From: a virus
Length of the DNA stretch: 39,453 nucleotides
Virus record (IMG/VR): IMGVR_UViG_3300009128_000051
Location: 1-39,453 of that record
Reading direction: 5' to 3' (one strand)
Shown: in pieces, positions 1,903 to 25,774 of the stretch
Layout of the letters: every line of letters starts with the position of its first letter
How positions within the stretch are numbered: the first letter of the stretch is position 1
Program-made: the position numbers and the translations under genes
The notes under the pieces: model-generated
Database searches by the model: none
The model's input: only the letters and a program-made list of their open reading frames with translations
Told to the model about the DNA's origin: nothing

Positions 1903-2036
1903 TGGAAGCATGTACACTTGTTTAGAATATGGGCTCGACCGTAAGAAACACGTATTTTAATTTAGATAAAAAACGTAGCACAGGAAAGAAGGGCAAGAAG
2001 CCCGAAGAAAATAAGGACAATCAGGAGATATTAATA

Positions 2037-3101
2037 ATGTCAGACGACGAAATTTTAGCAGCCGCAGATGATTTTGACTTTGTAGGTCACTACGGAGATC
2101 CAGTTCAGGACCAGGGAGACGAGCTGCTTCCAGATAATGTGGCGGGTAGCGCTATTTCATGCGGATTCATTGGCATCGGCGGTGGTGGTGGAAAGCTTGC
2201 AAAGGCGTTTATTGACGTTGGCTTTAATAAGACTGTCCTGGTCAATACGACAGAGAAGGACCAGCCTAATGGCGTAGACCCTGCGCACTTTCTATTGCTG
2301 CCAGGTGCTGATGGGGTGGGCAAGGATGTGAATCTCGGTCAAAAGGTTCTAACAGAAAATAGTACACTGCTAGAGGACGTACTTAAAAACAGGATAGGCC
2401 AGGTTGACTGGTTGTTTGTCCTCGCCGGTGGAGGTGGAGGTACAGGATCGGCATCAGGATGGCTTCACGGTTCATTTGAGCGATACCTGAAGGCATCCGG
2501 GGGTACTGGTGATGTTGTGTACGTTCTAACAGCTCCATCGGCCCAGGAGCTTCTCAATCCGACTATCAAAAACAATTATGAGATGGCCCTGGAGAAGGTT
2601 GTCAATTACTCACATATTGTCCTAGACAATGAACGACAGCTGCAGCTTTTGCGAGGCAAGGTTGGTGTTCTCAATATGTTCTCATTGGCTAACATTACGT
2701 TTGCCAAGATGCTTGCACAGGTATTTAGGCTAGCCGGCGCTAGTTCTCCTGTGCAGGCATTTGACACAAAGGATCTCGAGCGTTGCCTACGTGAGAAGGG
2801 TCGCATATTTCTCGGTACCACTGTTGTGCCAGAGCCGTCAGTTACCGGCCTAGGCAGTCGTATATATCAGGAGTGTGTAAAAAATTCGCCGTGTCCGTCT
2901 CCTGGTGGTCAGATATCAGTTGGATCTCTGCTTTTATGTGTCACTGAGGAAATGGCGTCAGATCCCACTATTTCCAATCACATGGAGTCAGCTGTCGCAT
3001 ATGTTGGAGCTAGATCCGGCGCGCTATTCTCAGGAATATATGTTCGCAACGGCCTTCCAGGTCTCGTAGCGATGGTCTTGCTGGGAGGTTTAAAGAGTTA
3101 A
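2037..3101 (+). CDS. FtsZ/tubulin-superfamily GTP-binding protein
   Basis: Predicted 354-residue filament-forming GTPase relative. The N-terminal Rossmann strand and loop read GFIGIGGGGGKLAKAF (residues 43-58). The tubulin/FtsZ signature loop appears as AGGGGGTGSAS (130-140). DNERQL near residue 197 resembles the NDRL region of FtsZ. At the T7-loop position the sequence is LANITFAKML (N219, T221, K224), where FtsZ has NxDxxD; both catalytic aspartates appear replaced, suggesting a weak or inactive GTPase or a regulatory paralogue. ATG 2037 is chosen because AGGAGA stands 7 bases upstream. An in-frame ATG at 1929 would add 36 lysine-rich residues but has no ribosome site. Jumbo phages use the tubulin PhuZ to centre a phage nucleus; a filament role here is only inferred. 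The gene stands alone between a terminator and a new promoter motif. Confidence 0.75.
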   Translation: MSDDEILAAADDFDFVGHYGDPVQDQGDELLPDNVAGSAISCGFIGIGGGGGKLAKAFIDVGFNKTVLVNTTEKDQPNGVDPAHFLLLPGADGVGKDVNLGQKVLTENSTLLEDVLKNRIGQVDWLFVLAGGGGGTGSASGWLHGSFERYLKASGGTGDVVYVLTAPSAQELLNPTIKNNYEMALEKVVNYSHIVLDNERQLQLLRGKVGVLNMFSLANITFAKMLAQVFRLAGASSPVQAFDTKDLERCLREKGRIFLGTTVVPEPSVTGLGSRIYQECVKNSPCPSPGGQISVGSLLLCVTEEMASDPTISNHMESAVAYVGARSGALFSGIYVRNGLPGLVAMVLLGGLKS

Positions 3102-6257: not shown

Positions 6258-6325
6258 ATAGGTTTTTAGACATCTAAACTCATAATTATAAAAGATTGCT
6301 TAAGCATGTTAATTGGGAGACCGAA

Positions 6326-9300
6326 ATGGCCGAGAGAACATTTAGATCGCCAGGATTTTTTGACACTGAGATTGATTTGTCTCAGAGACAGAAGGCACCA
6401 CTTGGCACACCTGCTGGAATAGCAGGCACTGCCGAGAAGGGTCCCGCATTCGTTCCGATTTCTATCGGGTCGCTTGCGGACTTTAAGACGAGGTTTGGAA
6501 ACTTAGATTCCAAGAAGTTTGGTCCCTATGCTGTTACTGAGTTTTTAAAGAATCGAAATGCGGTAACGTATGTCAGGACGCTAGGCGCTGGTGTAGTTAC
6601 TTCATCCGCTGATATTGAGAATGAAAGAACCAAGGGAAATCTTCCTGGTGCAGGATTTTTTCTGAAGCCTGTAAGCGTTCCTGACGACTCAGGTCATACA
6701 GGCGCAATGCAGTTCCTTGTTGCGAACCATTATATTTCTGCATCTGAGACAATTGGCATGCCAATGTTTTCGGATAATGATAGTTTTAATAACGCCTCGG
6801 AAGGTGCCGGCGCTCAAATAGTCAGAGGAATGATAGCACCTTCCGCCGGATCTAGAATTATGATTATAGATCATGACCAAACCTACAGTCCTGCTGTTGT
6901 TGCTAACGACACGGCAACTGTGGGTGCTGCGGCAGCTGGTCAAATGGCAACATGTTTTAAGATAATTGTCTCATCCTCCGCCGGTAGCGTTTTTGCAAAC
7001 GATGATGGCGCCCCCGGAATTAAAATTTACACGGCATCATTGGATCCTGACAATGATAACTTCATTTCCAAGGTTCTGAATACAGACCCTGAGCAGTTTA
7101 ACACATTTAAGCACTATCTATACGCATCATTTAATGTTGATGCTCAGCTAGCAGCTGTTACCACAGCAGCCGACGCAGTCGGTATTCTATCAGGATCATC
7201 AAGGACGAATTCACACGCCGTACCATTTCTTAATGCTTATGGTCGATTTAATGCAGCATATACAACACCAATTACTCCATCTGTTATATCACAGCCTTTT
7301 GGAACCAAAGAGTACGATCTGTTTAGTGTAGAGGCTATTTCTGACGGTGCTTATGCCAACACAGATATTAAGATATCCATTAGTAACATTCGCGCGTCTA
7401 CTAATCCAAACAGCGAATTTGGATCATTCACGCTACAGGTTCGAAAATTCAGTGACACAGATTTAAATCCTGAAGCCTTAGAGGAATATCCTAACCTATC
7501 ATTAGACCCACAGGCTTCAAATTACATCGCCAAGGTTATTGGCACAAAGAAGGCATCATTTAACTTCCTTGCTGAGCAGACAGAAGAGCGTCGCCTGGTT
7601 ATAACAGGTAAATTCCCTAATGTGTCAACGATGATTAGAGTAGTAGAGAGCGATGACTTGAAGAATGGACGAATTCCTAAGGACGCACTTCCATTCGGGT
7701 TTAGGGGATATGCCCTTTCACGAACATCTCCAAGTAATAACGATTTTATGCCGGACCCCAAAGGTGGACTAGGGGACGCTCTTATTACGGGGTCTATAGG
7801 GGCCACATCCCCACTTTCATCTTCAATTCTTCCACCAGTGCCATTGAGGTTTAAGGCAACACGCGGTGAGCTTAATAAGGCACCCACATATGTCGGGGAA
7901 AAGGGTGATCAGGAGATTACAGACGCTAGGTTTTACTGGGGCGTTAAATTTGAGAGGAATACCTCCCCCTATGATGCCAACCCGATACAGACAGCTAATG
8001 CATGCATTCCGGCCTTCGCCAAGTTCCTTGGTATGGCCAAGCAGGGCGTTTTGGTGTCAGGAAGTAATCGGGATTCGTTTAATAATAACAAGTTTACATT
8101 GGCCCGAGTTGCACTAAGCCCGAGTGCATCGCAGTGGAGTCAGGTAAATACGTCCACTGTCTCTGATATGATGAAGGAGGTTGCATACCTACGAAATGGG
8201 GTTGTCAATCCTGCTGCATCTGGGAGCGACTCGGCATTGTACACGCTTTCCGATGCCGTATCACGTGATACCAGGCTGGGGATGGGAAGCCTCTTGGCTT
8301 CTGGCGCTCTAACATTTAATAGGTTCTCTAATTTTAATAAGTTCTCAATGTTTATGGCAGGTGGTTGGGATGGCCTTAATATTCTGGATAAGAATGCCGG
8401 TCGAATGAATGATAAGGCTTCTTCCACATCAGCTGGCGGAGGTGCTTCGTCGGCTTTCACATCACCAGGCCTGTCAGCTAACATGGCCGGCGTTGGAAAG
8501 AATAACTCTGCTATCTCCGCTTATAAGACAGCAGCTGATATCTTGACGGATCCGTTCGCCTCTAATATTAATATCCTGTCGATACCTGGCATTAGGGAGC
8601 CACTAGTTACAGATCACGCTGCAAAGAAGACAAAGGACTACTCCATGGCTGTCTTCCTAATGGACATAGAGAATTACGATGATGATGGCAATAGGCTGTT
8701 CAACGATCGAATTGTTCGCCCCAGCGTTCGAAAGACAAAGGAGCAGTTCGAGAGTCGGGCAATCGACAATAACTACTCTGCTGTGTACTTTCCAGATGTC
8801 ATTATTGATACACCGTCTGGTCAGCACGTGAGGACACCTCCCAGTGTTGCTGCTCTTGGAGCTCTAGGGTATAATGATAAGGTTGGCTATCCATGGTTCG
8901 CCCCCGCTGGTTTTAACAGGGGAGCTCTGGATTTCGTCAAGAATGTCGATGTCCGACTGACAAAGGGTGACAGGGACGACCTGTACGATGCGAGGATTAA
9001 TCCGATTGCCACATTCCCACGACAGGGATTCGTAATATTCGGACAGAAGACCCTTCAATATGCCCAGTCATCACTGGACAGAGTGAATGTCAGGAGGCTA
9101 ATGCTGGAGATAAAGAGGATAATCGTCAATATTGCCGAGGGTATCCTCTTTGAGCCAAATACCTCAGCGACCAGAGCATCATTTATTGCTCAGTCAGTCC
9201 CACAGCTTGCATTAATTCAGGCACAGGCTGGCATCGAGAGCTTTAAGGTCGTGATGGATAATACTAATAATACCGCAGCTGATGTCGAGCAGAATAAGCT

Positions 9301-9391
9301 GAACGGTAGAATTGTTGTGGTACCGACTAGGGCGATTGAATTTATCGCAATTGACTTTATCATCACAAATTCTGGCGTAAGCTTTGAATAA
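6326..9391 (+). CDS. Tail sheath protein, gp18-like, copy A
   Basis: Contractile sheath subunit of 1021 residues; T4 gp18 has 659. The start begins MAERTFRSPGFFDTEIDLSQ, with GGGAGA 5 bases upstream of ATG 6326; an alternative in-frame start at 6296 has no good ribosome site. N-terminal features are GTPAGIAGTAEKGPAFVP and KKFGPYAVTEFLKNRNAVTY. The C-terminal sheath core includes INPIATFPRQGFVIFGQKTL, then DRVNVRRLMLEIKRI, and FEPNTSATRASF, followed by PTRAIEFIAIDFII, all typical of gp18-type sheaths. The middle (about residues 150-700) is enlarged and probably forms outward-facing insertion domains. It is followed after 37 bases by a clear paralogue, so the virion may carry two sheath species. 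Confidence 0.88.
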   Translation: MAERTFRSPGFFDTEIDLSQRQKAPLGTPAGIAGTAEKGPAFVPISIGSLADFKTRFGNLDSKKFGPYAVTEFLKNRNAVTYVRTLGAGVVTSSADIENERTKGNLPGAGFFLKPVSVPDDSGHTGAMQFLVANHYISASETIGMPMFSDNDSFNNASEGAGAQIVRGMIAPSAGSRIMIIDHDQTYSPAVVANDTATVGAAAAGQMATCFKIIVSSSAGSVFANDDGAPGIKIYTASLDPDNDNFISKVLNTDPEQFNTFKHYLYASFNVDAQLAAVTTAADAVGILSGSSRTNSHAVPFLNAYGRFNAAYTTPITPSVISQPFGTKEYDLFSVEAISDGAYANTDIKISISNIRASTNPNSEFGSFTLQVRKFSDTDLNPEALEEYPNLSLDPQASNYIAKVIGTKKASFNFLAEQTEERRLVITGKFPNVSTMIRVVESDDLKNGRIPKDALPFGFRGYALSRTSPSNNDFMPDPKGGLGDALITGSIGATSPLSSSILPPVPLRFKATRGELNKAPTYVGEKGDQEITDARFYWGVKFERNTSPYDANPIQTANACIPAFAKFLGMAKQGVLVSGSNRDSFNNNKFTLARVALSPSASQWSQVNTSTVSDMMKEVAYLRNGVVNPAASGSDSALYTLSDAVSRDTRLGMGSLLASGALTFNRFSNFNKFSMFMAGGWDGLNILDKNAGRMNDKASSTSAGGGASSAFTSPGLSANMAGVGKNNSAISAYKTAADILTDPFASNINILSIPGIREPLVTDHAAKKTKDYSMAVFLMDIENYDDDGNRLFNDRIVRPSVRKTKEQFESRAIDNNYSAVYFPDVIIDTPSGQHVRTPPSVAALGALGYNDKVGYPWFAPAGFNRGALDFVKNVDVRLTKGDRDDLYDARINPIATFPRQGFVIFGQKTLQYAQSSLDRVNVRRLMLEIKRIIVNIAEGILFEPNTSATRASFIAQSVPQLALIQAQAGIESFKVVMDNTNNTAADVEQNKLNGRIVVVPTRAIEFIAIDFIITNSGVSFE

Positions 9392-9428: not shown

Positions 9429-12400
9429 ATGGCCGAAAGAACATTAACAAGCCCAGGCGTCACAACGCGTGAAATTGACCTTAGCGGACCTACGAATGCT
9501 ACAGCATTCGGTGTCCCCGCCGGAGTGATAGGAACCGCTGACAGGGGGCTCGCATTTGTGCCTGTTACATTTGGCACCCGCCAGGATTTTGTCGCCAAGT
9601 TTGGTGACACTGATGGTAAGAAATTTGGGCCGCTAGCGGTGACCGAGTGGATGAGAAATGCCACTGCTGGTTCCTACCTTCGTATCCTGGGTGCCGGCGA
9701 TGGCAAGAAGCGATCCACGTCAACAGGAAAGGTTACAAATGCAGGATTTACTGTCGGTGCCGAGCAGGTACAGGCTAATGGACTGATTGGTCCTAATCCA
9801 TATGCTGTTGCTGGAAACCAACCTGGAAATGTGCATTTTCTTGCAGCAGCAATGGCACAGGCAGCTAATTCCACAATTTTTACCGATGCAGGCCTTAATG
9901 CGCAGACAGTCACTCTTCGTGGTGTGCTAATGGCACCTGATCAGGTTGTATTAATGCTATCAGGTACGACTACTGATAATAATACACCTACGGATGATTC
10001 AACAGCGGCTTCTTCTACAGGGCCTAGAGGAGCAATGACTGGCTCCCTTAATATAGCGTCAGGATCATCATCATTTGTCATGCTTTTAAACGGGCATAAG
10101 TCGACCGCTGCGTATCCAAACGTGATAACGGCATCACTCAACCCAACATCACCAGAATATTTTTCCAAGGTGTTCAATAAGGATGCAACCAAGATAGAGG
10201 AGGCAGGTCATCTGCTTTATGCTCACTATGATCTGGAAGAGGCTTTTTGCGTTCCGACAGGATCGAATCTCCTAGCCGCTGCAGCATACCATGATTCTAA
10301 TGGAAAGAGGCTAGAGGATATTGTTTTCCTAGCAACCGGTTCGGCGGATATGACAACCGGTGCCGCGACCCGGCCTGAGTACAAGGGGTTTGAGAATCGA
10401 TTTACTACATCCAAGTCACCATGGCTAACCAGTCAGGCAAATGTCAACCTATTTAGACTTCATGCTCTTGACGACGGCCAGCTACGTTCCACAGGTAATT
10501 CTAAGGCCCCAACAATGCAGGGTGCTAATGATAGATATAAGTTGTCAATAAGGAACATTAAAAAGTCGACATCAGCCACTGATTTATTCGGTACATTCGA
10601 CCTGGTGGTAAGGGACTTTTACGATACAGATGATGACCCAGTTGAACTAGAGACATTCTCAGGTCTTTCATTGGATCCTTCATCTCCCAATTATATCTCT
10701 GCAAGAGTTGGAGACATGACGACATACTTCGATTTTGACAAGGTCGATGATGAGCAGAGAATTGTGGTCGAGGGAAGCTATCCGAATGTCTCCAATTATA
10801 TTCGAGTTGAGCGCTCTATCGAGCTAGCCGCAGGCGATACGTCAGACGATTCCCTTCCAGTAGGATTCAGGGGTCCTGATCACCTGCTTCTATCGGGAAC
10901 AAACTGTCTTGCTCCTGCCTCACACGAAGCGGCCGTATACACAGGCCTCCCAGCCGACCTTGCAGGCTCTCCTATGGGAAGAATGAATGAACCACCAATA
11001 CCATTCAGGCAGCATCTAGTTGCAAACCAAAGTGGTACCATTAATTCCCGATTTAATGCCAACTTGTACTGGGGTATCCAGTTCGAGCGGGAGACGACGC
11101 TTGCTGGTCCAAATATAAGCCAGCTGCCAAATCCGACACTGGCCTCTATGACATCTTTCTTCCCCAACTTTAGGCTGGATGCGCTCAATGTTTCGACAGG
11201 CTCAAATGCCGGTGAGGCGCGCCTAAATGGTGGTATTTTGGATTCAGACCTATTCAACAATAATAAGTTTAGTCTATTAAACCTTAAGATCCTGACAGGC
11301 TCCGACGGCAAAGTGGATATTTCAACGGCACTGTCCTGGCAGTATGTCAGGAATGGTACAATCTCACCAAGCGCTGCTGGAAAGAGTCGAGCACTGAGTT
11401 TCACCGACGACTTCGTTCCTGCAATGAGTAGGTTCCTTAAGTTCAGCTTCTTTGTCGAGGGCGGATTTAATGGCCTGAACATGTTTAACAAGGACAAGGT
11501 GGAGATGAATAACACTGCTGTCCGCCGGGAGATGGATGACGTGAACGAATCGCAGAAGTCATCCTCGACAGTCGCTGCATATCTTAAGGCCTTGGATATT
11601 ATGGGTCGTACTAGTGACGTCGACCTACAGCTCTTGGCAATACCAGGAATTAGGCACTCGGCAGTCACAGACGAGGCCATTAACACTGTTGAAAATAGGT
11701 TTGATGCACTTTACATCATGGATATCGAAGAGCGTGATACGTTGAATATGGTGGTGACATCATCAGCACAGGTGCCACATGTCCAGAATACGGCGACTGC
11801 TTTTGGTAATCGCGCACTCGACACATCGTTTGCCGCGGCATACTTCCCCGACGTTATTGTCCTGGACTCAACAGTCAATACGCTGGTTAATGTTCCACCG
11901 TCAGTCGCTGTATTGGGTGCCTTCTCACTTAATGACAAGCTGGCACATCCCTGGTTCGCCCCAGCGGGCTTTGCACGCGGTGCCCTTGCTTCCACTGATG
12001 ATGTGGCTCTTCGAATCAACCAGGACAATCAGGACCGCCTCTACGAGACTGATATCAACCCAATCAGGACTTTCCCAGGTCGAAATGGTGTCGTGGTCTT
12101 CGGTCAGAAGACACTCCAGCAGGCACAGTCTGCACTAGATAGAATTAACGTCAGGCGTCTTCTCATAGACGTTCGACGTCAGGTCAGAAATATTGCCAAT
12201 AGGTTCCTCTTCGAACCAAACCGCGAGGCGACCCTCGCTGCATTCTCGGCTGCAGTCCAGCCGGTCCTTCAGAGGATTCAGCAGCAACAGGGCGTTGACA
12301 GGTACAAGGTGATAATTGACACAACCACTACTACCCAGGCCGACGTTGAGAATAACACGATCCGAGGTAAGATATTCCTACAGCCGACACGCTCTGTGGA

Positions 12401-12449
12401 ATTCGTCTCACTCGACTTTGTTGTCACAAATGCTGGCGCCGAGGAATAA
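9429..12449 (+). CDS. Tail sheath protein, gp18-like, copy B
   Basis: Second contractile sheath subunit, 1006 residues. The N-terminus MAERTLTSPGVTTREIDLSG and the segment KKFGPLAVTEWMRNATAGSY parallel copy A. The C-terminus closely matches copy A (INPIRTFPG, VVFGQKTLQQAQSALDRINV, RRLLIDVRRQVRNIANRFLF, PTRSVEFVSLDFVVTNAG), whereas the middle regions differ more. This pattern fits a tandem duplication in which the contractile core was kept and the exposed domains diverged. AGGAG is 8 bases before the ATG. The tail tube gene follows 56 bases later, as in T4 (18-19). Confidence 0.88.
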   Translation: MAERTLTSPGVTTREIDLSGPTNATAFGVPAGVIGTADRGLAFVPVTFGTRQDFVAKFGDTDGKKFGPLAVTEWMRNATAGSYLRILGAGDGKKRSTSTGKVTNAGFTVGAEQVQANGLIGPNPYAVAGNQPGNVHFLAAAMAQAANSTIFTDAGLNAQTVTLRGVLMAPDQVVLMLSGTTTDNNTPTDDSTAASSTGPRGAMTGSLNIASGSSSFVMLLNGHKSTAAYPNVITASLNPTSPEYFSKVFNKDATKIEEAGHLLYAHYDLEEAFCVPTGSNLLAAAAYHDSNGKRLEDIVFLATGSADMTTGAATRPEYKGFENRFTTSKSPWLTSQANVNLFRLHALDDGQLRSTGNSKAPTMQGANDRYKLSIRNIKKSTSATDLFGTFDLVVRDFYDTDDDPVELETFSGLSLDPSSPNYISARVGDMTTYFDFDKVDDEQRIVVEGSYPNVSNYIRVERSIELAAGDTSDDSLPVGFRGPDHLLLSGTNCLAPASHEAAVYTGLPADLAGSPMGRMNEPPIPFRQHLVANQSGTINSRFNANLYWGIQFERETTLAGPNISQLPNPTLASMTSFFPNFRLDALNVSTGSNAGEARLNGGILDSDLFNNNKFSLLNLKILTGSDGKVDISTALSWQYVRNGTISPSAAGKSRALSFTDDFVPAMSRFLKFSFFVEGGFNGLNMFNKDKVEMNNTAVRREMDDVNESQKSSSTVAAYLKALDIMGRTSDVDLQLLAIPGIRHSAVTDEAINTVENRFDALYIMDIEERDTLNMVVTSSAQVPHVQNTATAFGNRALDTSFAAAYFPDVIVLDSTVNTLVNVPPSVAVLGAFSLNDKLAHPWFAPAGFARGALASTDDVALRINQDNQDRLYETDINPIRTFPGRNGVVVFGQKTLQQAQSALDRINVRRLLIDVRRQVRNIANRFLFEPNREATLAAFSAAVQPVLQRIQQQQGVDRYKVIIDTTTTTQADVENNTIRGKIFLQPTRSVEFVSLDFVVTNAGAEE

Positions 12450-12505: not shown

Positions 12506-12994
12506 ATGGCCGAGACACTATCAGTCACAGAGATGCTTCCTAATAAGTTTGAGCCTAAAAGGAAGTTTAGATGGGTATTTCAGATAGAGGGCGTTGACGC
12601 TTTTCTGATAAAATCAGCCGCTCGGCCTACCATCAGTACCGAGGAAGTGACGCTTCCATTTATTAACCACACACGCTACCTTGCCGGTCGCACTACATTT
12701 GGGACGGTATCAGTAACGCTTTATGATCCGATTGCCCCCTCAGGTGCGCAGCAGGTAATGGAGTGGGTCAGGCTTCACTTCGAGTCAGTCTCAGGCCGTG
12801 CCGGCTACGCTGATTTTTACAAGCGTGATTGCCAGATTAAGCTCTTAGATCCTGTCGGTACAGTTGTTGAACTCTGGGATATGAAGGGTGCATGGTTAAC
12901 AGAGGCTAATTTCAACGAGTTGGATTATAGTGCCAGCGACGCCACTGAGATTGCTCTCACAATGCGCTTCGATAACTGCGTGCTTCAGTTCTAA
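12506..12994 (+). CDS. Tail tube protein, gp19-like
   Basis: Subunit of the inner tail tube inside the sheath, 162 residues against 163 in T4 gp19. Recognisable parts are NKFEPKRKFRWVFQIEGVDA (residues 13-32), the strand region VTLPFINHTRYLAGRTTFGT, then SVTLYDPIAPSGAQQVMEWV (about 72-91), and the closing strand EIALTMRFDNCVLQF. The ATG has AGCGGAGG about 10 bases upstream. It is the last gene before a perfect-palindrome terminator, so the sheath-tube unit ends here. Confidence 0.9.
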   Translation: MAETLSVTEMLPNKFEPKRKFRWVFQIEGVDAFLIKSAARPTISTEEVTLPFINHTRYLAGRTTFGTVSVTLYDPIAPSGAQQVMEWVRLHFESVSGRAGYADFYKRDCQIKLLDPVGTVVELWDMKGAWLTEANFNELDYSASDATEIALTMRFDNCVLQF

Positions 12995-13020
12995 GATTAA
13001 TTATACTAACTTTTTAAGGA

Positions 13021-13043
13021 CCCCGCCTGCAGGCGGGGTTTTT
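13021..13043 (+). terminator. Rho-independent terminator after tail tube
   Basis: A perfect 7-bp stem CCCCGCC / GGCGGGG (13021-13027 and 13032-13038) with loop TGCA is followed directly by TTTTTATTTTTG. It lies 27 bases after the tail tube stop codon. Confidence 0.93.
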
Positions 13044-13067
13044 ATTTTTGTAATAATTAATATTGGT

Positions 13068-13201: not shown

Positions 13202-14044
13202 ATGTCTAACAGAAGGAACGAAGTATTTAACTCACCAGGACCTGAAGAGTCGTTACGAGGCACCCCAGGTGTACAGACACAGGAACTGGATTTTGAGATA
13301 CCCGTAGAGACAGTTCCGCTTCCAAGTCGAGGAATGGCGTATGCAGTTGATCACCCGCTTCACGCATGTGATACTGTTGATATTAAGGCAATGACTGCAC
13401 GGGAGGAGGATATTCTCACCTCGAAGGCATTTATTAAGAAGGGGACTGTCATTACGGAATTGATTAGGTCATGCCTGGTTGATAAGCGAATTGATCCTAA
13501 TACGCTGCTGTCCGGTGATAGGAATGCATTAATGGTTGCAATTCGAATTACGGGCTATGGCGTCGAGTATAATACGGAGGTCGAGTGTCCTTCATGCTCC
13601 ACAAAGGATTCACATGAGTTTAACCTTGCAGAGTTACCCATTACCTCTCTTGGTGATGACCCAATAGAACCTGGAATGAATGCTTTTGAGTTTACACTTC
13701 CCATGACCAAAAAGCGTGTCACATTTAAGTTTCTGACAGGACGTGACGAACAGGAGATAATGATTGCTTCTGAGCGACGTAAAAAGGGCGGTATTATGGG
13801 CGATAATCTTGTGACGAACAAGCTTCAGTATACCCTGTTGACTGTGGATGGAAAGACCGAGCGCAGTTCTATTAATCACTTCATCCGACACATGCCTGCT
13901 AGAGACTCATTAGCCCTTCGACGTAAGATGGATAAGATTGAGCCTGGAATTGAGATGAAGAGTTGGATGGACTGCCAGCACTGCTCAGAGTCGGCGGAGG
14001 TACAGCTCCCAATCGGAGCCTCGTTTTTTTGGCCTGACGCCTAG
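13202..14044 (+). CDS. Baseplate hub assembly / tail chaperone, gp26-like (PF12322 type)
   Basis: A 280-residue protein of the T4 baseplate-assembly family. The N-terminal half has VPLPSRGMAYAVDHPLHACD, then IKAMTAREEDILTSKAFIKK (about residues 38-80), the hallmark of this group. Two CxxC pairs, C129/C132 and C258/C261, probably form one zinc site. T4 gp26 and gp51 help build the hub and are not clearly part of the virion. The position, between tail tube and tape measure genes, is that of tail-assembly chaperones in other phages. The zero-frame product ends FFWPDA at TAG 14042-14044. A run of seven T at 14024-14030 permits shifting into an open downstream frame. Confidence 0.75.
   Translation: MSNRRNEVFNSPGPEESLRGTPGVQTQELDFEIPVETVPLPSRGMAYAVDHPLHACDTVDIKAMTAREEDILTSKAFIKKGTVITELIRSCLVDKRIDPNTLLSGDRNALMVAIRITGYGVEYNTEVECPSCSTKDSHEFNLAELPITSLGDDPIEPGMNAFEFTLPMTKKRVTFKFLTGRDEQEIMIASERRKKGGIMGDNLVTNKLQYTLLTVDGKTERSSINHFIRHMPARDSLALRRKMDKIEPGIEMKSWMDCQHCSESAEVQLPIGASFFWPDA
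14024..14030 (+). promoter_or_regulatory. Candidate frameshift site (T7)
   Basis: The zero frame reads TCG TTT TTT TGG. Slipping forward by one base (or back by two) on the T run gives FF-GLTPSDKEIFLEHTF and then MYYGGFTYTE, with no stop until 14283. GGAG lies 6 bases upstream of the run and the zero-frame stop is 12 bases downstream. A one-base homopolymer error would look the same. Confidence 0.45.
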
Positions 14045-14285
14045 CGATAAGGAGATATTCCTAGAGCACACATTCATACTTATGTACTACGGTGGCTTCA
14101 CGTACACCGAGTGTTATACTATGCCTATTAGTTATAGGATATGGTTTATCAGGCGAATTAACCAGGAATTTGAGCGCTCGTCGAAGACGGCGTCCAAGGC
14201 TATTCACGACAATAATCCAACAGCTAACATGCTTTCTGGAAAACACAGGGCAGAAACTCCTGCTAGAATGCGGAGATTCACCTGA
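14031..14285 (+). CDS. Frameshifted C-terminal extension of the gp26-like protein
   Basis: This frame, +1 relative to the upstream gene, is open from the T7 site to TGA 14283-14285 and would add 84 residues, giving a fusion of about 360. The content looks real rather than chance: LEHTFILMYYGGFTYTECYT and MPISYRIWFIRRINQEFERS form a compact aromatic and helical module that I associate with the C-terminal part of PF12322-type proteins. The ATG at 14082 could start a separate 67-residue peptide, but it would remove conserved-looking residues and has no ribosome site at a suitable distance; AAGGAG at 14049-14054 is 27 bases away. A fusion analogous to the lambda G-GT pair is my preferred reading. 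Confidence 0.55.
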   Translation, partial: GLTPSDKEIFLEHTFILMYYGGFTYTECYTMPISYRIWFIRRINQEFERSSKTASKAIHDNNPTANMLSGKHRAETPARMRRFT

Positions 14286-14609: not shown

Positions 14610-17600
14610 GTGGCAGAGAATCTCAAGACAACACAGGCTATTAATAAGCTGCTCAAGGAGCGCCAGGCGCTTATGAAGAGCATGAATAATGACCTGACTC
14701 GTCAGGTGGCATTACAGCGTGATATGTGCTCCGCGTTGGAGTGCGCCGACACAGACGCATTTGAAAACCTGAGAAATTCTGGCAAAGAAGCGGCCGAAGC
14801 GATCAAGGAGGCCGAGAAGGCAACTGAGGATACGACAAAAGAGATCGGCAAGATGGAAAAGGCAGTCCGAAAAGCCAAAGCTGGGTTTAGGAAGTTTGGT
14901 GCTGGTATTCGCGGGGTCTTTGGCGGGATTATGAGTGCCATCCTGGCATCTATTGGGGTATTAAAGAGTTTCTATAAGCATTACATAGATAAAATGCACG
15001 AGGTCATCAAGCAACTAGAGCGTGTCCAGGAGGCCCAGGAGAATGTTCGTAAGAAGTTTGGCAGCCTGACAAAAGGCCCAGGCAAGATGGTGATAAAGGA
15101 TGCCCAGGCCATGGGTCGAGCATTTTCGAAGATGGGCGTCTCAGCAGGTTTCGGCTACGATGCGGCCATAAACCTGATAAATAAGATGGGTGAACTCTAT
15201 GGCGCCATGGATCCTGGACAGCTGGCAGGCTTTGCTAGGATGTCACAGGATAACAGGATTGAGATGGGCAAGCTAGCTATGGCTGCCGGCTATTCAGGAG
15301 AGGAGATCGGTCAGCTAAATAACACGTTCCGCGCGATGGGCGAGGACGGCGTCTCAGCCGTGAAGGACGTCACCCTTCGCTCGCATCGCCTATCGGCCAC
15401 ACTAGGTATATCAGCCAAGCAGGCCCACAAAGGCTTCAGTCAGATGATCAGGAATGTCAAGGCATTCGGCAATGCCAACCGTGCTGAGATGGAGTCAGCG
15501 ATGTCAAAGGCTACACAGCTTGGCATATCGATCAAGGATCTTGCCGGGATCTCCGACGCCTTCTTCACGTTCGACAAGGCAGCTGAGAATGTCTCCAAGC
15601 TCAGCCAGGCGTTCGGAACGCAGATAGACACGATGAAGATGCTGAATGCTGCCAGCCCCGCAGACCAGTTGGATCAGATGCGGGAGGCCATGTTCCGCGC
15701 CGGCAAGTCAGCAGAGACCCTGAGCAGGCATGAGCTCGCCCTGCTAGCACAGTCATCGGGCCTCTCAGAGGAGGCAGCTCGACTGGCATTCTCACAGGAA
15801 TCACAGTACATGTCTCAGGAGGAGCTGGCAGCCAAGATGGCCGAGACAGATCCACAGCAGCAGATGGTCAAGGCAATGCAGGACGTCGCCAAGGAGATCG
15901 AGAATGTCGTTGTCAAGATGAGCGACATGATGTTGGATGGCAAGGGTTTCTTTGAGTCATTTATAGAGGGCATAAGCCAGTCGCTGTTCCTTTTTGGCAG
16001 GATCACAGGCGCATCAGCATCGTTTAGAACAGCGCTTGTCGAGGTCTACGAAATAGGCAGGGAGCTTGGAGACACGCTGCTGGATTTTGATTTTATACGA
16101 GAGATGTTTGAGGGGACTGATAATACCATCTCTAAGATGCCCAAGTTGTTTCAAATGCTGTCGAATGCTATAAAGTCAACAGTCGCCCCAATAAATGCCG
16201 CCTATAAGTCATTTAAAGCATTCTTTGGGGCCTCGACCCAGGCGGAACAGACAAAGGCATTCAATAAGATGCTTAAAAACCTGAAGAAGGCATTTACTAA
16301 TTTTACGACTAGTTTATTTGGTGGCAGCGGTGCCAGTCAGATGGGTGGTAAGATAAAACACTTTTTAAATATGACGGCGGATGTTGTGATACCACAAGTG
16401 GTGAAGTTGATTACAATGATTGCTAAACGAATCTGGAAGGAATTTAAGAAGCTACCATGGAAACAGCAGCTAGGCGTCGCCGTATTCACAATGGCTGCAC
16501 TTCTCCCCGGCCTCCTCCTTTCCGCAATTGGGGGAGTTTTTAAGGGTATAGGAAAATTGCTTTGGAAACCCCTTAAATGGGCATTCAAAAAGATTCCGTG
16601 GAGTAGACTGGGCAATTTCATTAAGGGTCCTGGTCTTCGAGGCATAGGATCAGCATTTACGTGGATTATTAAAAAGATTCCACTAATACTTTTGCTCTGG
16701 GCTGCGGTAAAGCCAGTGATAGGCTTGTTTGGCGATATTAAGAAGCGGTTTATGGACGCTGCTCGAGCTGGCGGCGGATTTATGGACAGTATTAAGGCCC
16801 TAGGTGGCATAATGTCTGATTTTATTGGTCGGGCATTAGAGTGGGCTGTCGGCGTTGCAGACCTGGTATCATTTGGACTCTTGTCGAAGTGGCTCGATCC
16901 GGATAAATTTGCCGCCTCGTGGGACACGTTTACATACGAGGTCAAAGACATGTTTAAGGGTCTGTGGTCTAACACGATTATGCCCGCTATCGAGACGTGG
17001 CTGACAGGAGTTGGAGAGCTTAAGAGAATAGGAAAAGAGATTATAGGCGGCGTTTGGGACGGTCTCAAGGAGCAGTGGACGCTAATATCAACCTGGTGGA
17101 GAGATAAGTGGCAGCAATTTAGGGATTGGCTACCGGGCAGCGAACCAAAAGATCCGTCTAGCCCATTTCGTAACCTTGCGAATGCTGGAAGGGCAATGAT
17201 GGGGAATGTTCTCGATGGCTTAAATAAGATTCCTGGTGTTGCAAAAGCCAAGGAGGCGTTTGCTAATGTCGCGAATATCATAAAAGATCCAGGTGCTGCA
17301 CTAAAGGCTGTCGGTGAAAAGGTAAAAGCCGGTGTTGACTTCGTTAGTAGCGCGATGGCAGGGGCCAAGAATATCCTACTCGAAGGCCTTCGATCATTTT
17401 CCGGCGCTATAATTGAAGGTGTGAGTATTATGGCACCAGCACTTTTGAAGGTCACAGAGCTCTCGGGCTCGGCTAGCACAGCTTTCAGATCATTCGCCGG
17501 TGTGTTTAAGGAGGTTGGTGATATATTCTCTGGTGTGGGCAGGGGTTCTGTCGATGTAGACGTGGTGACAAATAAGCTCGCTAGGGCAGCCGCCGGAATT

Positions 17601-17798
17601 GCCAAGATGACAGAAACACTGGCCACTGTCGACACCGTCAATCTACAAACTAAAGTGGAGGAGATCCTCGGTTCAGGCGTATTTGCCGGAGAGAACTCTG
17701 CCGATAAGGGCAAGGTCCAGATTAATTTGAATGTACATATGGATGCAGCCAAGCTCGCACGTGCTATTGTTGAGACACGAGTCATACCGGGAACATGA
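14610..17798 (+). CDS. Tape measure protein
   Basis: A 1062-residue protein with the layout expected of a tail-length ruler. There is a helical, charged N-terminal third, including a coiled-coil-like stretch around residues 45-95 and 130-150. A hydrophobic segment follows at about 108-125 (GVFGGIMSAILASIGVL). A long alanine/methionine-rich helical region leads to further hydrophobic segments near 626-650 (AVFTMAALLPGLLLSAIGG) and 690-705 (IPLILLLWAAVKPVIGLF). It begins at GTG 14610, with only a weak GGAC upstream. It follows the chaperone genes and precedes a baseplate series. At about 0.15-0.17 nm per residue it predicts a tail of roughly 160-180 nm, longer than that of T4. It shows no peptidase or lysozyme motif that I can see. 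Confidence 0.72.
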   Translation: MAENLKTTQAINKLLKERQALMKSMNNDLTRQVALQRDMCSALECADTDAFENLRNSGKEAAEAIKEAEKATEDTTKEIGKMEKAVRKAKAGFRKFGAGIRGVFGGIMSAILASIGVLKSFYKHYIDKMHEVIKQLERVQEAQENVRKKFGSLTKGPGKMVIKDAQAMGRAFSKMGVSAGFGYDAAINLINKMGELYGAMDPGQLAGFARMSQDNRIEMGKLAMAAGYSGEEIGQLNNTFRAMGEDGVSAVKDVTLRSHRLSATLGISAKQAHKGFSQMIRNVKAFGNANRAEMESAMSKATQLGISIKDLAGISDAFFTFDKAAENVSKLSQAFGTQIDTMKMLNAASPADQLDQMREAMFRAGKSAETLSRHELALLAQSSGLSEEAARLAFSQESQYMSQEELAAKMAETDPQQQMVKAMQDVAKEIENVVVKMSDMMLDGKGFFESFIEGISQSLFLFGRITGASASFRTALVEVYEIGRELGDTLLDFDFIREMFEGTDNTISKMPKLFQMLSNAIKSTVAPINAAYKSFKAFFGASTQAEQTKAFNKMLKNLKKAFTNFTTSLFGGSGASQMGGKIKHFLNMTADVVIPQVVKLITMIAKRIWKEFKKLPWKQQLGVAVFTMAALLPGLLLSAIGGVFKGIGKLLWKPLKWAFKKIPWSRLGNFIKGPGLRGIGSAFTWIIKKIPLILLLWAAVKPVIGLFGDIKKRFMDAARAGGGFMDSIKALGGIMSDFIGRALEWAVGVADLVSFGLLSKWLDPDKFAASWDTFTYEVKDMFKGLWSNTIMPAIETWLTGVGELKRIGKEIIGGVWDGLKEQWTLISTWWRDKWQQFRDWLPGSEPKDPSSPFRNLANAGRAMMGNVLDGLNKIPGVAKAKEAFANVANIIKDPGAALKAVGEKVKAGVDFVSSAMAGAKNILLEGLRSFSGAIIEGVSIMAPALLKVTELSGSASTAFRSFAGVFKEVGDIFSGVGRGSVDVDVVTNKLARAAAGIAKMTETLATVDTVNLQTKVEEILGSGVFAGENSADKGKVQINLNVHMDAAKLARAIVETRVIPGT

Positions 17799-21361: not shown

Positions 21362-21655
21362 ATGCCGATATCAAGATATGCCAAAGACTCTATTATTTTA
21401 AAGGGTACCACGATGTCCACAGCTACCGCATTTCGTAAGATAAAGAAAGCTGTGGCATCTAATAGTTTGAGCACCAGCACAATAACAACACAAGGTTTAG
21501 GTCGTCTTGACGAGCTGGCTGGAAATTTATACGGTGACAGTCGCTACTGGTGGATCTTGGCGGCCGCATCTGATATTGGCTGGGGACTCCAGATTCCTGG
21601 TGGAACTATGATTACAGTTCCAGACCTTTCTCAGGTAGTAAGTCTGCTGACATGA
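21362..21655 (+). CDS. LysM-like baseplate protein, gp53/gpX-like
   Basis: A 97-residue protein with the pattern of phage LysM-fold baseplate proteins. GRLDELAGNLYGDSRYWWIL, followed by AAASDIGWGLQIPGGTMITV (about residues 47-87), matches the usual 'RLDxLAxxxYGDxRYWWxIAxxN...PGxxxxIP' form. Such proteins (P2 gpX, domain of T4 gp53) bind the hub or wedge rather than peptidoglycan in the assembled virion. Its stop overlaps the next start by 4 bases (ATGA), so translation is coupled to the hub-like gene. Confidence 0.75.
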   Translation: MPISRYAKDSIILKGTTMSTATAFRKIKKAVASNSLSTSTITTQGLGRLDELAGNLYGDSRYWWILAAASDIGWGLQIPGGTMITVPDLSQVVSLLT

Positions 21656-24528
21656 CTGAGGCATCGAAAGGACTTATTGATGATCCGACGGACGCGCTGA
21701 AGCAGTTCTTTCTTGATCCTCTCATACTTTCACCGCAGGTAGGCGGTGGTCAAAACCAGGCCAACAAGAATCTTATTATATCACGATTGATTTTTGGCGA
21801 TCCAGCACGAGGATCTCGCACTATTGACAATGTTATTAGCGAACTGTCTGATCTTGATAGCGACACATTACAAACACCAATTATAATATTAGGCCCTTCT
21901 AACCAGGCATTTAATATTTTTAATGGTTGGGAAGACATTAATGCTGGTAATATTGGATTGATTACTGCTAATGAAGCGGAGACAGAAACGAATCTGTCAC
22001 TTATATTTGTAATGTCCCAGGCATTCGGGCCAGCAGCACGTGACACAAATGGATTGCAGGTATTTTTTAACTCTATACCCACTGTGCAGATGTCGATGTG
22101 CCAGCCTTTTTTAACTCTCCAGCTAATATCAGATAGGACAAATCCTAGTGAAGGTGACCCGGCTGCAGGCGCATCTATTTATAAGTTTCTTCACGGCGCA
22201 ACAGGATTGAATGACGAACCAAATTTTGTCAAGATGCTTGCAGGCACTGGTATATCAGCTTCAGGTGAGCCAGGAAATATTTCTGAGAATGAGGGTGGCG
22301 CAGGAATGGAGCTCTTTCTGTCACCACAGACAATGGTCCCAGACAGCGACTATGCTAATCATGATAGTAATCTTAGGGCAACACCAATAATTGATAGGTT
22401 TCGTCCATTTATGTCATTAAACGATTTTACAATTAGTTCGTATAACGCTGGTGCAGGTGCATTATCTTACAAGACAGCAAGAATGAGTATAACGTTACAT
22501 GATCGATCGCGAATGACTGAGATTGCCGAGATTTTAAATCCAGGACAGTATCAGTCTGCAAAATTTATATGTGAGTGGGGATGGAGTCATCCTCATGGTC
22601 AGCCGGGATGTGCAATTGAAAATCCGTATGGAAGATTTTTAAACAGTCTTAGAAGGAAAGAGTTGTTTAGGGTGACGAAGTATAAGTTGAATATGGATAC
22701 AGTCGGACAATTTAAGATCGAAATTGATCTTCACTCGCCAGCTGGCCTAGACCTTCAAAACCAAAAAATTTCGGCGGCACCTAACGGTATGGGAACTGAC
22801 AATATTGTGCACCAATTAAATGAGCTAATTACTAGAATTGGTGAGGCTCTTGGTATACTAAGGAGTAAGCAGCAATTAACTAATATTAGTGGATACAGGG
22901 TTCTTGGAAGAATGGGCACCCTGACATCAGTACCTAGATTGACAGACAAAATAGGTGATGGTGATAAGACCGTTGGAGACATGCTAGGAGAAATTATAGA
23001 ATCACTCACGACGACCAAGGAAGAAGGCGAGGATGCACAATGCAGGGAAACGGCTGGCGAATTAATAGCAGATATCGGTAAGCTATACAGTTTGGATGAC
23101 TCATCTGACAGTGATACTATGATAGATGATGCCTATCGAACTGTTGCTAATGCTATAGAAAGAAAAATGGTATCTATCACAGGCGGGCCCACCGGCGGTG
23201 ACGGTGCTGTGCGAGCTGCCACATCTGATCCATTTAAGAACCTGACTAAAAATTGGAACAGTTTAAAAAATGACTCTGATCCTGAATTCCCAGATGAGGA
23301 ATATAATTCTCCAGCCCCATCTTTTGTATCTCTGGCCAAGGTTTTTGCTGTGTTTATAGGTCAGTCGCTGCAGGCGACCAGTCCATATACTGACATTCAG
23401 ATGATATTTCATAATTTTAATGATCAGGCTGGCCTTATGGGAATGACGAAGGCTGATGGTGGTCTACCTGCTAAAAATATTGGTGAGTTTAAGATTCATG
23501 CTGGTAATTTTAGATCTATGCTTACCCATGCGTTTCAACGTAATCGCTCATTAGAAATGGACCTGACTGGATTTATTAGTCTTGTTATTAATAATTTTCC
23601 CGACGACATGTCTAGTATAAATTATGGACTACAAGGCCTCTATCAGACTGTTCAGGATCCTGAAACGGGAAGGATAACAGCGGAAAAGACCGAGGAAGCC
23701 AAGGAAAATGATGCACTTCAAATGCGTGATGCTGTCGCTGCCCGTCTTCGTACACATTGTGTATACACGGAATTTAGGATGCCCCAACTTGAGGTAACAG
23801 TTGAAAGTCAACCTGTTTGGCATGTCGATGGCGGTGAAGACGAGATCATTAAAAATGAGATACTCAAGATTCATGTATATGACAAGCAGGCATCTAATAA
23901 TCCGGCTGCCCAAAATACACTTAGATCTGCGTATAATGCTTTCAATTCAGGCAATGTAAATCAGGAACCCACGGATATATCAGCAGAAGAGGGTACACCT
24001 GCGACAGATGGGGCGCCTACCACCGAAGCAGCCGGCGCCGGCGAGGGGCTGGCGCCTTTGGGTGGCGATATCGACCCAATAGCGCTATTTCGTGCCGTTA
24101 GGAGTGCTGTTCCAACAATTACATATGGCAGCTCTGCATCAATGATTAAGAATGCAAGTTTATCCACCGAGGCGGATCAATTGTTTGCTGCCAATATTAT
24201 GACAGGTGGCGGCCCTAATCCAGGTCCGTTAATGCCGACAGGATTAGGATCGGGAGAGCTTCCGCTTGAGGTATTTCCGACTAGGCTGACACTAGGCTTG
24301 GTGGGATGTCCTCTAATTGAGTATATGCAGCAGTTCTTTGTTGATTTTGGGACAGGAACGTCAGCTGATAACATGTATCACGCTATTAAGGTCAATCACA
24401 AAATATCACCCGGGACATTTGAGACGTCTATCGTTTGTTCATTTGTTGATGCCTATGGCACATTTAGAACACATGCAAGTGGGCTTAGTGCGATTAACGC
24501 CGCGAATGAGGCCAACAAAGATTCCTGA
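21652..24528 (+). CDS. Large baseplate hub-like structural protein
   Basis: A 958-residue virion protein, tentatively the hub (P2 gpD position). Identifiable stretches are FNSIPTVQMSMCQPFLTLQL (about residues 137-156), RPFMSLNDFTISSYNAGAGA, then LSYKTARMSITLHDRSRMTE (about 243-283), and near the C-terminus EYMQQFFVDFGTGTSADNMY followed by VNHKISPGTFETSIVC, which resembles the C-terminal barrel of hub proteins. An acidic, low-complexity linker rich in Glu, Ala, Thr and Gly (about residues 765-800) separates that module from the rest. It is the last structural gene in the window; a promoter and a replication gene follow 46 bases later. Family placement is by context and partial motif memory. 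Confidence 0.55.
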   Translation: MTEASKGLIDDPTDALKQFFLDPLILSPQVGGGQNQANKNLIISRLIFGDPARGSRTIDNVISELSDLDSDTLQTPIIILGPSNQAFNIFNGWEDINAGNIGLITANEAETETNLSLIFVMSQAFGPAARDTNGLQVFFNSIPTVQMSMCQPFLTLQLISDRTNPSEGDPAAGASIYKFLHGATGLNDEPNFVKMLAGTGISASGEPGNISENEGGAGMELFLSPQTMVPDSDYANHDSNLRATPIIDRFRPFMSLNDFTISSYNAGAGALSYKTARMSITLHDRSRMTEIAEILNPGQYQSAKFICEWGWSHPHGQPGCAIENPYGRFLNSLRRKELFRVTKYKLNMDTVGQFKIEIDLHSPAGLDLQNQKISAAPNGMGTDNIVHQLNELITRIGEALGILRSKQQLTNISGYRVLGRMGTLTSVPRLTDKIGDGDKTVGDMLGEIIESLTTTKEEGEDAQCRETAGELIADIGKLYSLDDSSDSDTMIDDAYRTVANAIERKMVSITGGPTGGDGAVRAATSDPFKNLTKNWNSLKNDSDPEFPDEEYNSPAPSFVSLAKVFAVFIGQSLQATSPYTDIQMIFHNFNDQAGLMGMTKADGGLPAKNIGEFKIHAGNFRSMLTHAFQRNRSLEMDLTGFISLVINNFPDDMSSINYGLQGLYQTVQDPETGRITAEKTEEAKENDALQMRDAVAARLRTHCVYTEFRMPQLEVTVESQPVWHVDGGEDEIIKNEILKIHVYDKQASNNPAAQNTLRSAYNAFNSGNVNQEPTDISAEEGTPATDGAPTTEAAGAGEGLAPLGGDIDPIALFRAVRSAVPTITYGSSASMIKNASLSTEADQLFAANIMTGGGPNPGPLMPTGLGSGELPLEVFPTRLTLGLVGCPLIEYMQQFFVDFGTGTSADNMYHAIKVNHKISPGTFETSIVCSFVDAYGTFRTHASGLSAINAANEANKDS

Positions 24529-24539
24529 TTGTTAATAGC

Positions 24540-24569
24540 TTGTTCAATTTGCTAATGGCATGATAAAAT
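24540..24569 (+). promoter_or_regulatory. Extended -10 promoter before the polymerase gene
   Basis: TTGTTC (24540-24545), an 18-base spacer and TGATAAAAT (extended -10, hexamer 24564-24569). The expected start of transcription is about 24575-24576, the A of the ATG, so the mRNA would have almost no leader. Confidence 0.5.
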
Positions 24570-24574
24570 AGTGC

Positions 24575-25774
24575 ATGCGATTGCACATTTCACGACGACT
24601 AATCGATAATCAGGACGGTATAACATTCGATCGTGATGGTGCTATTGTCGCAATAGGCACACCTGAGACCGACGACTGGACTGTCGGCTGTCAGGACTCA
24701 GGCCTTCGTGTTGAGGACCTCGCCGCCGTCACAGGTCACCAGCTTAATATAATGCCTGATCGAAAGTATATTGCAGCCGTCTCAGCTGTCTCTCAGCCAA
24801 GAGATTTCCCGCTTAAGTGGTCAATGCCTTCCTTGACGTACAGGAACTATCTTAGGAGGCTCCAGGATGAGTCCTGGGATGTCCTAGACTCATCTCCGAT
24901 GGAATACTATCATGACCACTTCGTGTCAACCAGAGACCTCCTGGGAGCCTTGAAGCCTGCAAGGATCGATGCTGACAGGCACCAACGGGCAATCCGTGCC
25001 GAGATGACACCTGGCCAGAGGTCAGTCCTGATCTCATTTACACCCGATGATGATGGATTTGCCAGGTCCGTGGCATATAATCAGCATGGCTCCAGGACCG
25101 GTCGATTGACAGAGAGGTCGGGCCCACAGATTCTTCGACTTCGAAAGGATCTTCGAGGCATCATAGGCTCTCGGTTTGACGGCGGCCAGATATACCAGGT
25201 CGACTTTGTCTCATTGGAGGCACGTATCGCTGCTGCTATCGGTGGCCTGATCGCTGAGCGTGATGTCTATAGCCAGGTCGCCCGCGATGTCTTCGATAAC
25301 ATGTACAGTCGAGATCAGGTTAAGCTGGCATGCCTATCAGTCATCTACGGTGCAGGTCCCAAGAGATTATCATCGCAGTTGGGAATCAGTCGGCTGGAGG
25401 CTAACCTGCTTATCACAAAGATATCCTCAACTTTCGGTGTCCAGGAACGAGCCAGAGAGCTTCTTGGGGATGCTATGGCAGATGATAGGATTAGGAACCA
25501 CTTCGGCCGAGTCCTGACAGCAGATGATAAGGCATCCCACGTCCTGTACAACAACTTCATCCAGTCGACCGGTGTAGACGTCGCCATGTCAGGATTTAGG
25601 AAGATAATTGAAATGACAGACACCTCGACCGTCGTTCCAATATTTCTGCTCCATGATGCTATTATTTTCGACGTCCATCCTGATAGTATCGATGACCTTA
25701 CGGCGATCTCAAGCGGGGTGATTGGGATCGAGGGATTTGACGCTCCTTTTTACGTCGATGTTTCGAAATTTTAG
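24575..25774 (+). CDS. Small family A DNA polymerase (palm/fingers only)
   Basis: A 399-residue polymerase of the DNA polymerase I family, without a 3'-5' exonuclease domain and with a reduced thumb. SRTGRLT precedes motif A. Motif A is QVDFVSLEAR, with D210, E215 and R217. Motif B is RDQVKLACLSVIYG, with R246, K250, Y258 and G259. Motif C is LLHDAIIFDV, with H360 and D361. The two metal-binding aspartates are kept, but the residue after the motif C aspartate, normally Glu, is Ala362, and the fingers position usually Phe or Tyr (F762 in E. coli) is Leu254. It could be a gap-filling or lesion polymerase, or one half of a split replicative enzyme. No ribosome site precedes ATG 24575. It lies between tail genes and the replication block. 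Confidence 0.82.
   Translation: MRLHISRRLIDNQDGITFDRDGAIVAIGTPETDDWTVGCQDSGLRVEDLAAVTGHQLNIMPDRKYIAAVSAVSQPRDFPLKWSMPSLTYRNYLRRLQDESWDVLDSSPMEYYHDHFVSTRDLLGALKPARIDADRHQRAIRAEMTPGQRSVLISFTPDDDGFARSVAYNQHGSRTGRLTERSGPQILRLRKDLRGIIGSRFDGGQIYQVDFVSLEARIAAAIGGLIAERDVYSQVARDVFDNMYSRDQVKLACLSVIYGAGPKRLSSQLGISRLEANLLITKISSTFGVQERARELLGDAMADDRIRNHFGRVLTADDKASHVLYNNFIQSTGVDVAMSGFRKIIEMTDTSTVVPIFLLHDAIIFDVHPDSIDDLTAISSGVIGIEGFDAPFYVDVSKF

Follow-up and report, generated by a model that had tools for sequence, protein, structure and literature searches.

The phage locus considered here ends, in its own reading frame, with a stop codon shortly behind a run of seven T residues, and a second frame stays open across that stop. 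This raises the question of whether the second frame is translated as part of the same protein and, if so, by which route. The window (the whole stretch of DNA analysed, 39,453 nucleotides) is a 39-kb virus record from a contractile-tail phage whose head and tail genes are of T4 type; a phage nucleotide search with its positions 1–24000 gave no match. The features of the locus are:

13202..14044, + strand: frame-0 gene, predicted short chaperone form of the T4 gp26/gp51 family, 280 amino acids
14024..14035, + strand: conserved slip box TTT TTT TGG CCT, from the sequence and its relatives
14042..14044, + strand: frame-0 stop codon TAG, from the sequence
14031..14285, + strand: +1-frame extension, putative T-like domain, 84 codons and TGA, kept in relatives
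13202..14285, + strand: predicted long form, 360 amino acids, with one base skipped at the slip box (TTTT read as one step)

The final frame-0 codons are TTT TTT TGG CCT GAC GCC TAG, such that the frame-0 protein has the C-terminus GASFFWPDA. The T7 run occupies 14024–14030, its last T being the first base of the TGG codon in frame 0, and 11 bases lie between it and the TAG at 14042. In the +1 frame no stop interrupts the sequence between 13959 and the TGA that ends at 14285, and exactly 84 residues are encoded from GGC (14031) through 14282, which bears out a sequence-only reading of this DNA, according to which frame 0 ends in FFWPDA and the +1 frame adds 84 residues. The conserved module that the same reading placed in the extension is present but begins earlier than the 'MYYGG' quoted there, at GLTPSDKEIFLEH, directly behind the slip site. 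The in-frame ATG at 14082, the only ATG, GTG or TTG of the window between slip site and core motif, therefore falls 51 bases inside the module.

The gene very probably encodes a tail assembly chaperone of the T4 gp26/gp51 family in two forms, the longer of which is made by programmed +1 ribosomal frameshifting. We infer both the slippage step in the P site and its rate: the majority of ribosomes would read through FFWPDA to the stop and release the short form, and some would pause when UUU, held by tRNA-Phe, occupies the P site and UGG (Trp) has reached the A site. The tRNA-Phe would then slip +1 to the overlapping UUU (UUU_U, 14027–14030), the A-site codon would change from UGG in frame 0 to GGC in the +1 frame (9.5 and 25.0 uses per 1000 codons in the window, respectively) and 84 further codons would be read, giving a long form that ends in a T-like domain. 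If lambda G/GT is a guide, the N-terminal part common to both forms would serve to coat the tape measure protein, and tail tube subunits would be recruited by the extension.

The neighbouring genes are consistent with such a role:

12506..12994, + strand: T4 gp19-type gene for the tail tube protein, immediately before the chaperone gene
13015..13044, + strand: terminator-like hairpin of 13 pairs with a T run, between the tube and chaperone genes
14610..17798, + strand: ORF of 1062 amino acids in tape-measure position, assigned by position

The tube gene was identified through phrog_4542 (tail tube, E 2.2e-33) and PF06841 (E 3.5e-6, slightly below its cut-off). The 1062-residue ORF has no family match that would name it, only one to phrog_2990 (unknown function, E 1.5e-4), and its position is that of the annotated tape measure gene in Flavobacterium phage immuto, Bacillus phage SP-15 and Listeria phage LIS04. 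The chaperone gene thus sits between the tube gene and this ORF, with a small ORF also in between, and the tail-chaperone position claimed for it in the sequence-only reading holds. Terminator-like sites number 3 in the region against 1.3 in shuffled sequences, and a terminator is annotated in the SP-15 record at the place matching this strong hairpin. The same gene order, with a short and a long form made by a shift near the 3′ end, occurs in the E/E′ genes of phage P2. For lambda G/GT the same arrangement is described in those parts of the literature that were available. Both of these systems shift −1, and neither showed a sequence relation to the window gene in family searches.

The frame-0 protein belongs to the T4 gp26/gp51 family (PF12322, E 6.3e-15), its 55.9 bits exceeding the curated cut-off of 24.5, and also matches phrog_150, annotated as baseplate hub (E 4e-18); the extension alone has no family match in Pfam, PHROGs or NCBIfam. 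T4 gp26 and gp51 both match PF12322, and gp26 ends in EFFELL, resembling the short form. The extension is related to the end of gp51 through an intermediate set, the extensions that other relatives carry in the −1 frame: in profile comparisons the +1 extensions match the −1 extensions with a probability of 95.7, and the −1 extensions match the C-terminus of gp51 with a probability of 96.8. The direct match between the +1 extensions and gp51 is weak (probability 17, against at most 0.35 in 20 column shuffles). Taken together, these links indicate that T4 encodes short and long form in two separate genes, unlike the window, where one gene and a +1 shift would provide both. The available part of Atkins 2016 describes the G-T frameshift as conserved in long-tailed phages 'except T4'.

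The structure model of the frame-0 product has a mean pLDDT of 85.6, and the best of 485 aligned chains is the HK97 tail assembly chaperone 2ob9 (rmsd 4.1, 83 of 104 residues aligned), with a Z of 6.1 that is on its own below the safe level of the tool and is followed by 2.5 in the next row. A Foldseek search of the PDB with the same model returned no match at E≤0.001 (2ob9, E 1.6), and sequence searches for solved structures with the long form and T4 gp51 gave no credible match. The modelled resemblance to 2ob9 is supportive of a chaperone fold and is not proof of it.

A different assignment would accept the frameshift and make the proteins baseplate hub parts, or hub-assembly factors, instead of a chaperone of the tape measure. 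The family annotation 'baseplate hub' and a review of the T4 tail, which in its available part places gp26 and gp51 among the hub assembly chaperones, agree with this assignment; the gene position, the two-form design, the T-like extension, the structural match to the HK97 chaperone and the title of Vladimirov et al. 2022, as cited elsewhere, all speak against it, and it appears unlikely. That title, known here through citing papers, claims gp26 and gp51 as tail assembly chaperones of T4-like phages, such that the proposal of the sequence-only reading that this family acts in tail assembly and has two forms here, both predicted, is supported without being new. The papers on PRFect and on phage Adele, in the parts available, cite the same work for a short gene and a fused long gene, and also for poly-T −1 signals. 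Chaperone activity in this lineage would follow from these likenesses.

Conservation of the layout was surveyed among relatives. A first IMG/VR scan with the frame-0 protein yielded 27 loci, all of which (27/27) have the slip box followed by the frame-0 stop, together with a similar +1 extension. Together with two further scans and the named phages this gave 200 usable loci; since each large scan contributed the best 80 of at least 600 matches, the counts describe those neighbourhoods rather than the whole family. Among the matches listed, the frame of the extension is +1 in 191 of the 200 loci and −1 in 8, and no extension was detected in 1; after removal of copies at 95% identity, the corresponding figures for the 170 non-redundant loci are 161, 8 and 1, again among the matches listed. 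The single 'none' is RM378 (L042), in which a 68-codon +1 ORF accompanies a TTT TTT TGG site but went unrecognised by the extension profile. The window (L035) and T4 (L036) were excluded from the survey, and five loci lie outside the 200: L040 and L041, missed by the frame-0 profile, and L070, L162 and L191, which run off their contigs. The sequence-only reading asked whether the T7 run and both frames are conserved in relatives; both frames are, and the T7 run is in most of them. The T count at the junction is the same in three further metagenome contigs (L001, L002 and L006), with T7 also in the diverged L003, L004 and L005, so that the miscounted T run named in that reading as a refutation did not turn up in these contigs. 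The +1 layout is found in these named phages: Microcystis phage Mel-JY01, immuto, SP-15, LIS04, Streptococcus phage GXN1 and Streptomyces phages BRock and LuckySocke. One locus with TTT TTT TGG and a +1 extension (L296, CP070664.1) is in a 2.8-Mb chromosome of a WOR-3 metagenome-assembled genome (MAG), either as an integrated phage or as one wrongly joined.

The extension evolves as a protein. In 87 gap-free pairs its pN/pS is 0.22 in the +1 frame and 1.17 and 1.58 in the other frames, and pN is below pS in the +1 frame in 87/87 pairs; judged by these substitution patterns, selection at the protein level is confined to the +1 frame. A rival account makes the extension a separate small gene, expressed by re-initiation after the frame-0 stop. 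A small ORF is annotated at the extension in the records of Mel-JY01, immuto and SP-15, and ATG, GTG or TTG occurs in the +1 frame between the slip site and the core motif in 85 of 153 loci, 53 of these having ATG. None of the three is present in that stretch in the other 68 loci (the motif search behind this count was a rough one; it failed for 26 of the 153, where a stretch of 20 codons was used instead), which argues that an own start of the extension is not general. The only candidate start of the window lies inside the module, as noted above, and the slip codon, itself invariant, goes together with the frame of the extension; neither point favours re-initiation, and a separate gene is very unlikely. 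An evidently separate gene for the extension with its own start, named in the sequence-only reading as grounds for abandoning it, was not encountered in the +1 relatives examined; the nearest case is a −1 relative, Pseudomonas phage Cygsa01 (L041), which reads AGC ATT TTC ACC TAA TG without a heptamer, the ATG of its extension overlapping the stop (TAATG), and which perhaps re-initiates.

The signal for +1 frameshifting is concentrated in the slip codon. Among the matches listed, the 153 TGG-bearing non-redundant +1 loci have TTT (140) or CTT (13) before TGG and no other codon, the base at −1 being T in 153/153. TTC is found there in 0 of the 153, yet it accounts for 369 of the 1285 Phe codons elsewhere in those genes (TTT, 916/1285; CTT, 758 of 3425 Leu codons). 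Information at the third positions from −10 to −22 is 0.01–0.18 bits, compared with 2.0 at the third position of the slip codon in the 153 loci. The codon after TGG is CCT in 150/153, part of which may stem from double coding, as two frames are read beyond TGG, and the third base of the slip codon is on this comparison more telling than the conservation from TGG onward. Shared ancestry means that 153/153 does not equal 153 independent events. Both UUU and CUU before U can re-pair one base forward, and all 153 loci therefore have a YUU_U P-site codon that is re-pairable forward, followed in the window by a less used A-site codon. Base −7, ahead of both slip codons, is T in 2/153 (1%), against 11–28% at other third positions; its rarity indicates that the heptamer U_UUU_UUU, which would favour −1, is avoided. 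In three distant +1 members (L032, L034 and L305), UUU_CGN takes the place of UUU_UGG, as TTT CGT in GXN1 and a MAG contig and as TTT CGC in BRock.

In its slip tetranucleotide (UUU_U in 140 and CUU_U in 13 of 153) the site resembles that of the bacterial RF2 gene prfB, CUU_UGA_C; the available part of Atkins 2016 gives CUU_U for RF2, and UUU_U for a small fraction of species. The two differ in that RF2 has the stop codon UGA in the A site, whereas the window clade has the sense codon UGG and no evident Shine-Dalgarno stimulator. Upstream Shine-Dalgarno-like cores occur in 46/153 loci, compared with 101, 26 and 3 of 153 in windows farther upstream, and so do not exceed the nearest control window. 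No downstream RNA structure was seen in the first 60 of the 153 loci (mean z −0.58). To judge by its sequence, YUU_UGG_C resembles an RF2 site with a sense codon in place of the stop. A +1 site with neither a stop codon nor an obvious stimulator, present in 153/153 TGG-bearing +1 loci, would be a clean and readily tested bacterial +1 signal.

The interrupted T runs bear on two further routes into the extension. Polymerase slippage on the T7 run could give mRNAs with six or nine U, from which ordinary translation would make the long form, and a run of 7 T precedes GG in 128/153 loci. The remaining 25 have runs of 3 (13), 4 (9) or 6 (3) T, in 22 of which the run is seemingly too short, and T ahead of the run is avoided rather than favoured; this route is highly improbable. 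A ribosomal shift of −2 would lead to the identical final frame with a product one residue longer, and the T7 of the window would permit it, but the P-site tRNA cannot re-pair in this way at TTC TTT TGG (9 of 153) or TTT CTT TGG (13 of 153), where it can do so by +1. A −2 shift is accordingly even harder to credit, and of the '+1 (or −2)' in the sequence-only reading the +1 stands and the −2 does not. As the same 22 loci combine a T run of 4 or 3 with the lack of −2 re-pairing, neither −2 nor polymerase slippage is the common mechanism; on these interrupted runs and on the start-codon counts, −2 shifting, polymerase slippage and a separate gene were each rejected as general explanations. Homopolymers are error-prone, but a sequencing or assembly error within one continuous gene has a negligible probability and is refuted as a general explanation by a layout common to 161 of 170 non-redundant loci from many samples, interrupted runs included, and found in the records of Mel-JY01, immuto, SP-15, LIS04, GXN1, BRock and LuckySocke.

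The proposed +1 frameshifting in the window clade has a counterpart of opposite direction in the same family. In cyanophage-type T4-like chaperones the shift falls where the frame-0 product ends in FF, and a related extension is reached by −1 at U_UUU_UUC instead of by +1 at YUU_UGG. Extensions in the −1 frame are carried by Cyanophage S-RIM8, Agrobacterium phages OLIVR6 and Atu_ph07, Sinorhizobium phage phiM9 (slip sequence U_UUU_UUG), Pseudomonas phage PA5oct and Aeromonas phage 65.2. A scan that used the S-RIM8 protein as query (best 80 of at least 600 matches; 78 usable loci, 73 non-redundant; L232, L250 and L306 left out at contig ends) found the −1 extension together with an in-frame T TTT TTC in 73/73 non-redundant loci among the matches listed. 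The motif and the frame of the extension were compared in 255 loci (173 +1, 81 −1 and RM378; L291 and L292 omitted as copies of SP-15 and L008). Among the matches listed, the heptamer is present in 81/81 −1 loci, and YUU_Y without the heptamer in 171/173 +1 loci. The exceptions are L302, with a heptamer and yet a +1 extension, and LIS04 (L031), with neither motif as defined. The window reads TCG TTT TTT TGG with a +1 extension, and an in-frame X_XXY_YYZ heptamer with a −1 extension was not found in it.

Two loci, L074 (AAT TTT TTC TGG) and L096 (AAT TTC TTC TGG), lie within the +1 clade and have the extension in the −1 frame. In a FastTree tree they fall in separate places, and at least three changes of direction are needed to account for its well supported branches; the tree has long branches, and chiefly the nesting of L074 and L096 is drawn upon. 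It seems probable that the tail-chaperone family has flipped the direction of its frameshift several times, with a large YUU_UGG_C +1 clade of mostly uncultivated contractile-tail phages, −1 branches using U_UUU_UUC, and at least L074 and L096 gone over to TTC and −1. Selection against a U just upstream of the +1 site, which would create the −1 heptamer, and the two genes of T4 would form part of this history with similar plausibility. A comparable case, according to the available part of the Atkins review, is the fungal Rab-GDI displacement factor, a single gene that shifts −1 in most species and +1 in some; it is eukaryotic and its protein is unrelated to that of the window gene.

If several flips did occur, the family would be a natural experiment on what sets the polarity of frameshifting, and close relatives of opposite polarity would allow the determinants of slippage direction to be tested directly. 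Sequence in any case ties the wider T4-like family to −1 shifts, +1 shifts and the two-gene solution of T4. As far as the literature was searched, the +1 direction and its site are new for this family; +1 shifting in tail chaperones is not, as the available part of Atkins 2016 considers it very likely in HSTV-2, a virus of haloarchaea. No printed account of the +1 branch or of the changes in direction was found, although Vladimirov et al. 2022, known through citations, may describe +1, and the literature searched gave no mention of a frameshift product from this lineage. The literature behind these comparisons, available in part, is PMC5009743, PMC10885494, PMC12846349, PMC12671138, PMC3004832 and PMC3711429. 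The layout also corrects annotation: in the public records examined the extension is split off, shortened or missing, and two records are unannotated altogether.

Other features of the window were recorded alongside. The frame-0 protein (13202–14044) has two CxxC pairs, CPSC and CQHC, possibly a zinc site, both of which are absent from Mel-JY01 and immuto. In 21652–25774 a 399-residue ORF matches the C-terminal part of family A DNA polymerase only and is preceded by a 958-residue ORF without a family match. A 390-residue protein adjoining the major head protein (1929–3101) gives a weak match to Tubulin/FtsZ GTPase (E 1.7e-4, below the Pfam cut-off). Upstream of the tube gene, 6296–9391 and 9429–12449 encode tandem tail sheath paralogues of about 1000 residues each, with the sheath domain at the C-terminus.
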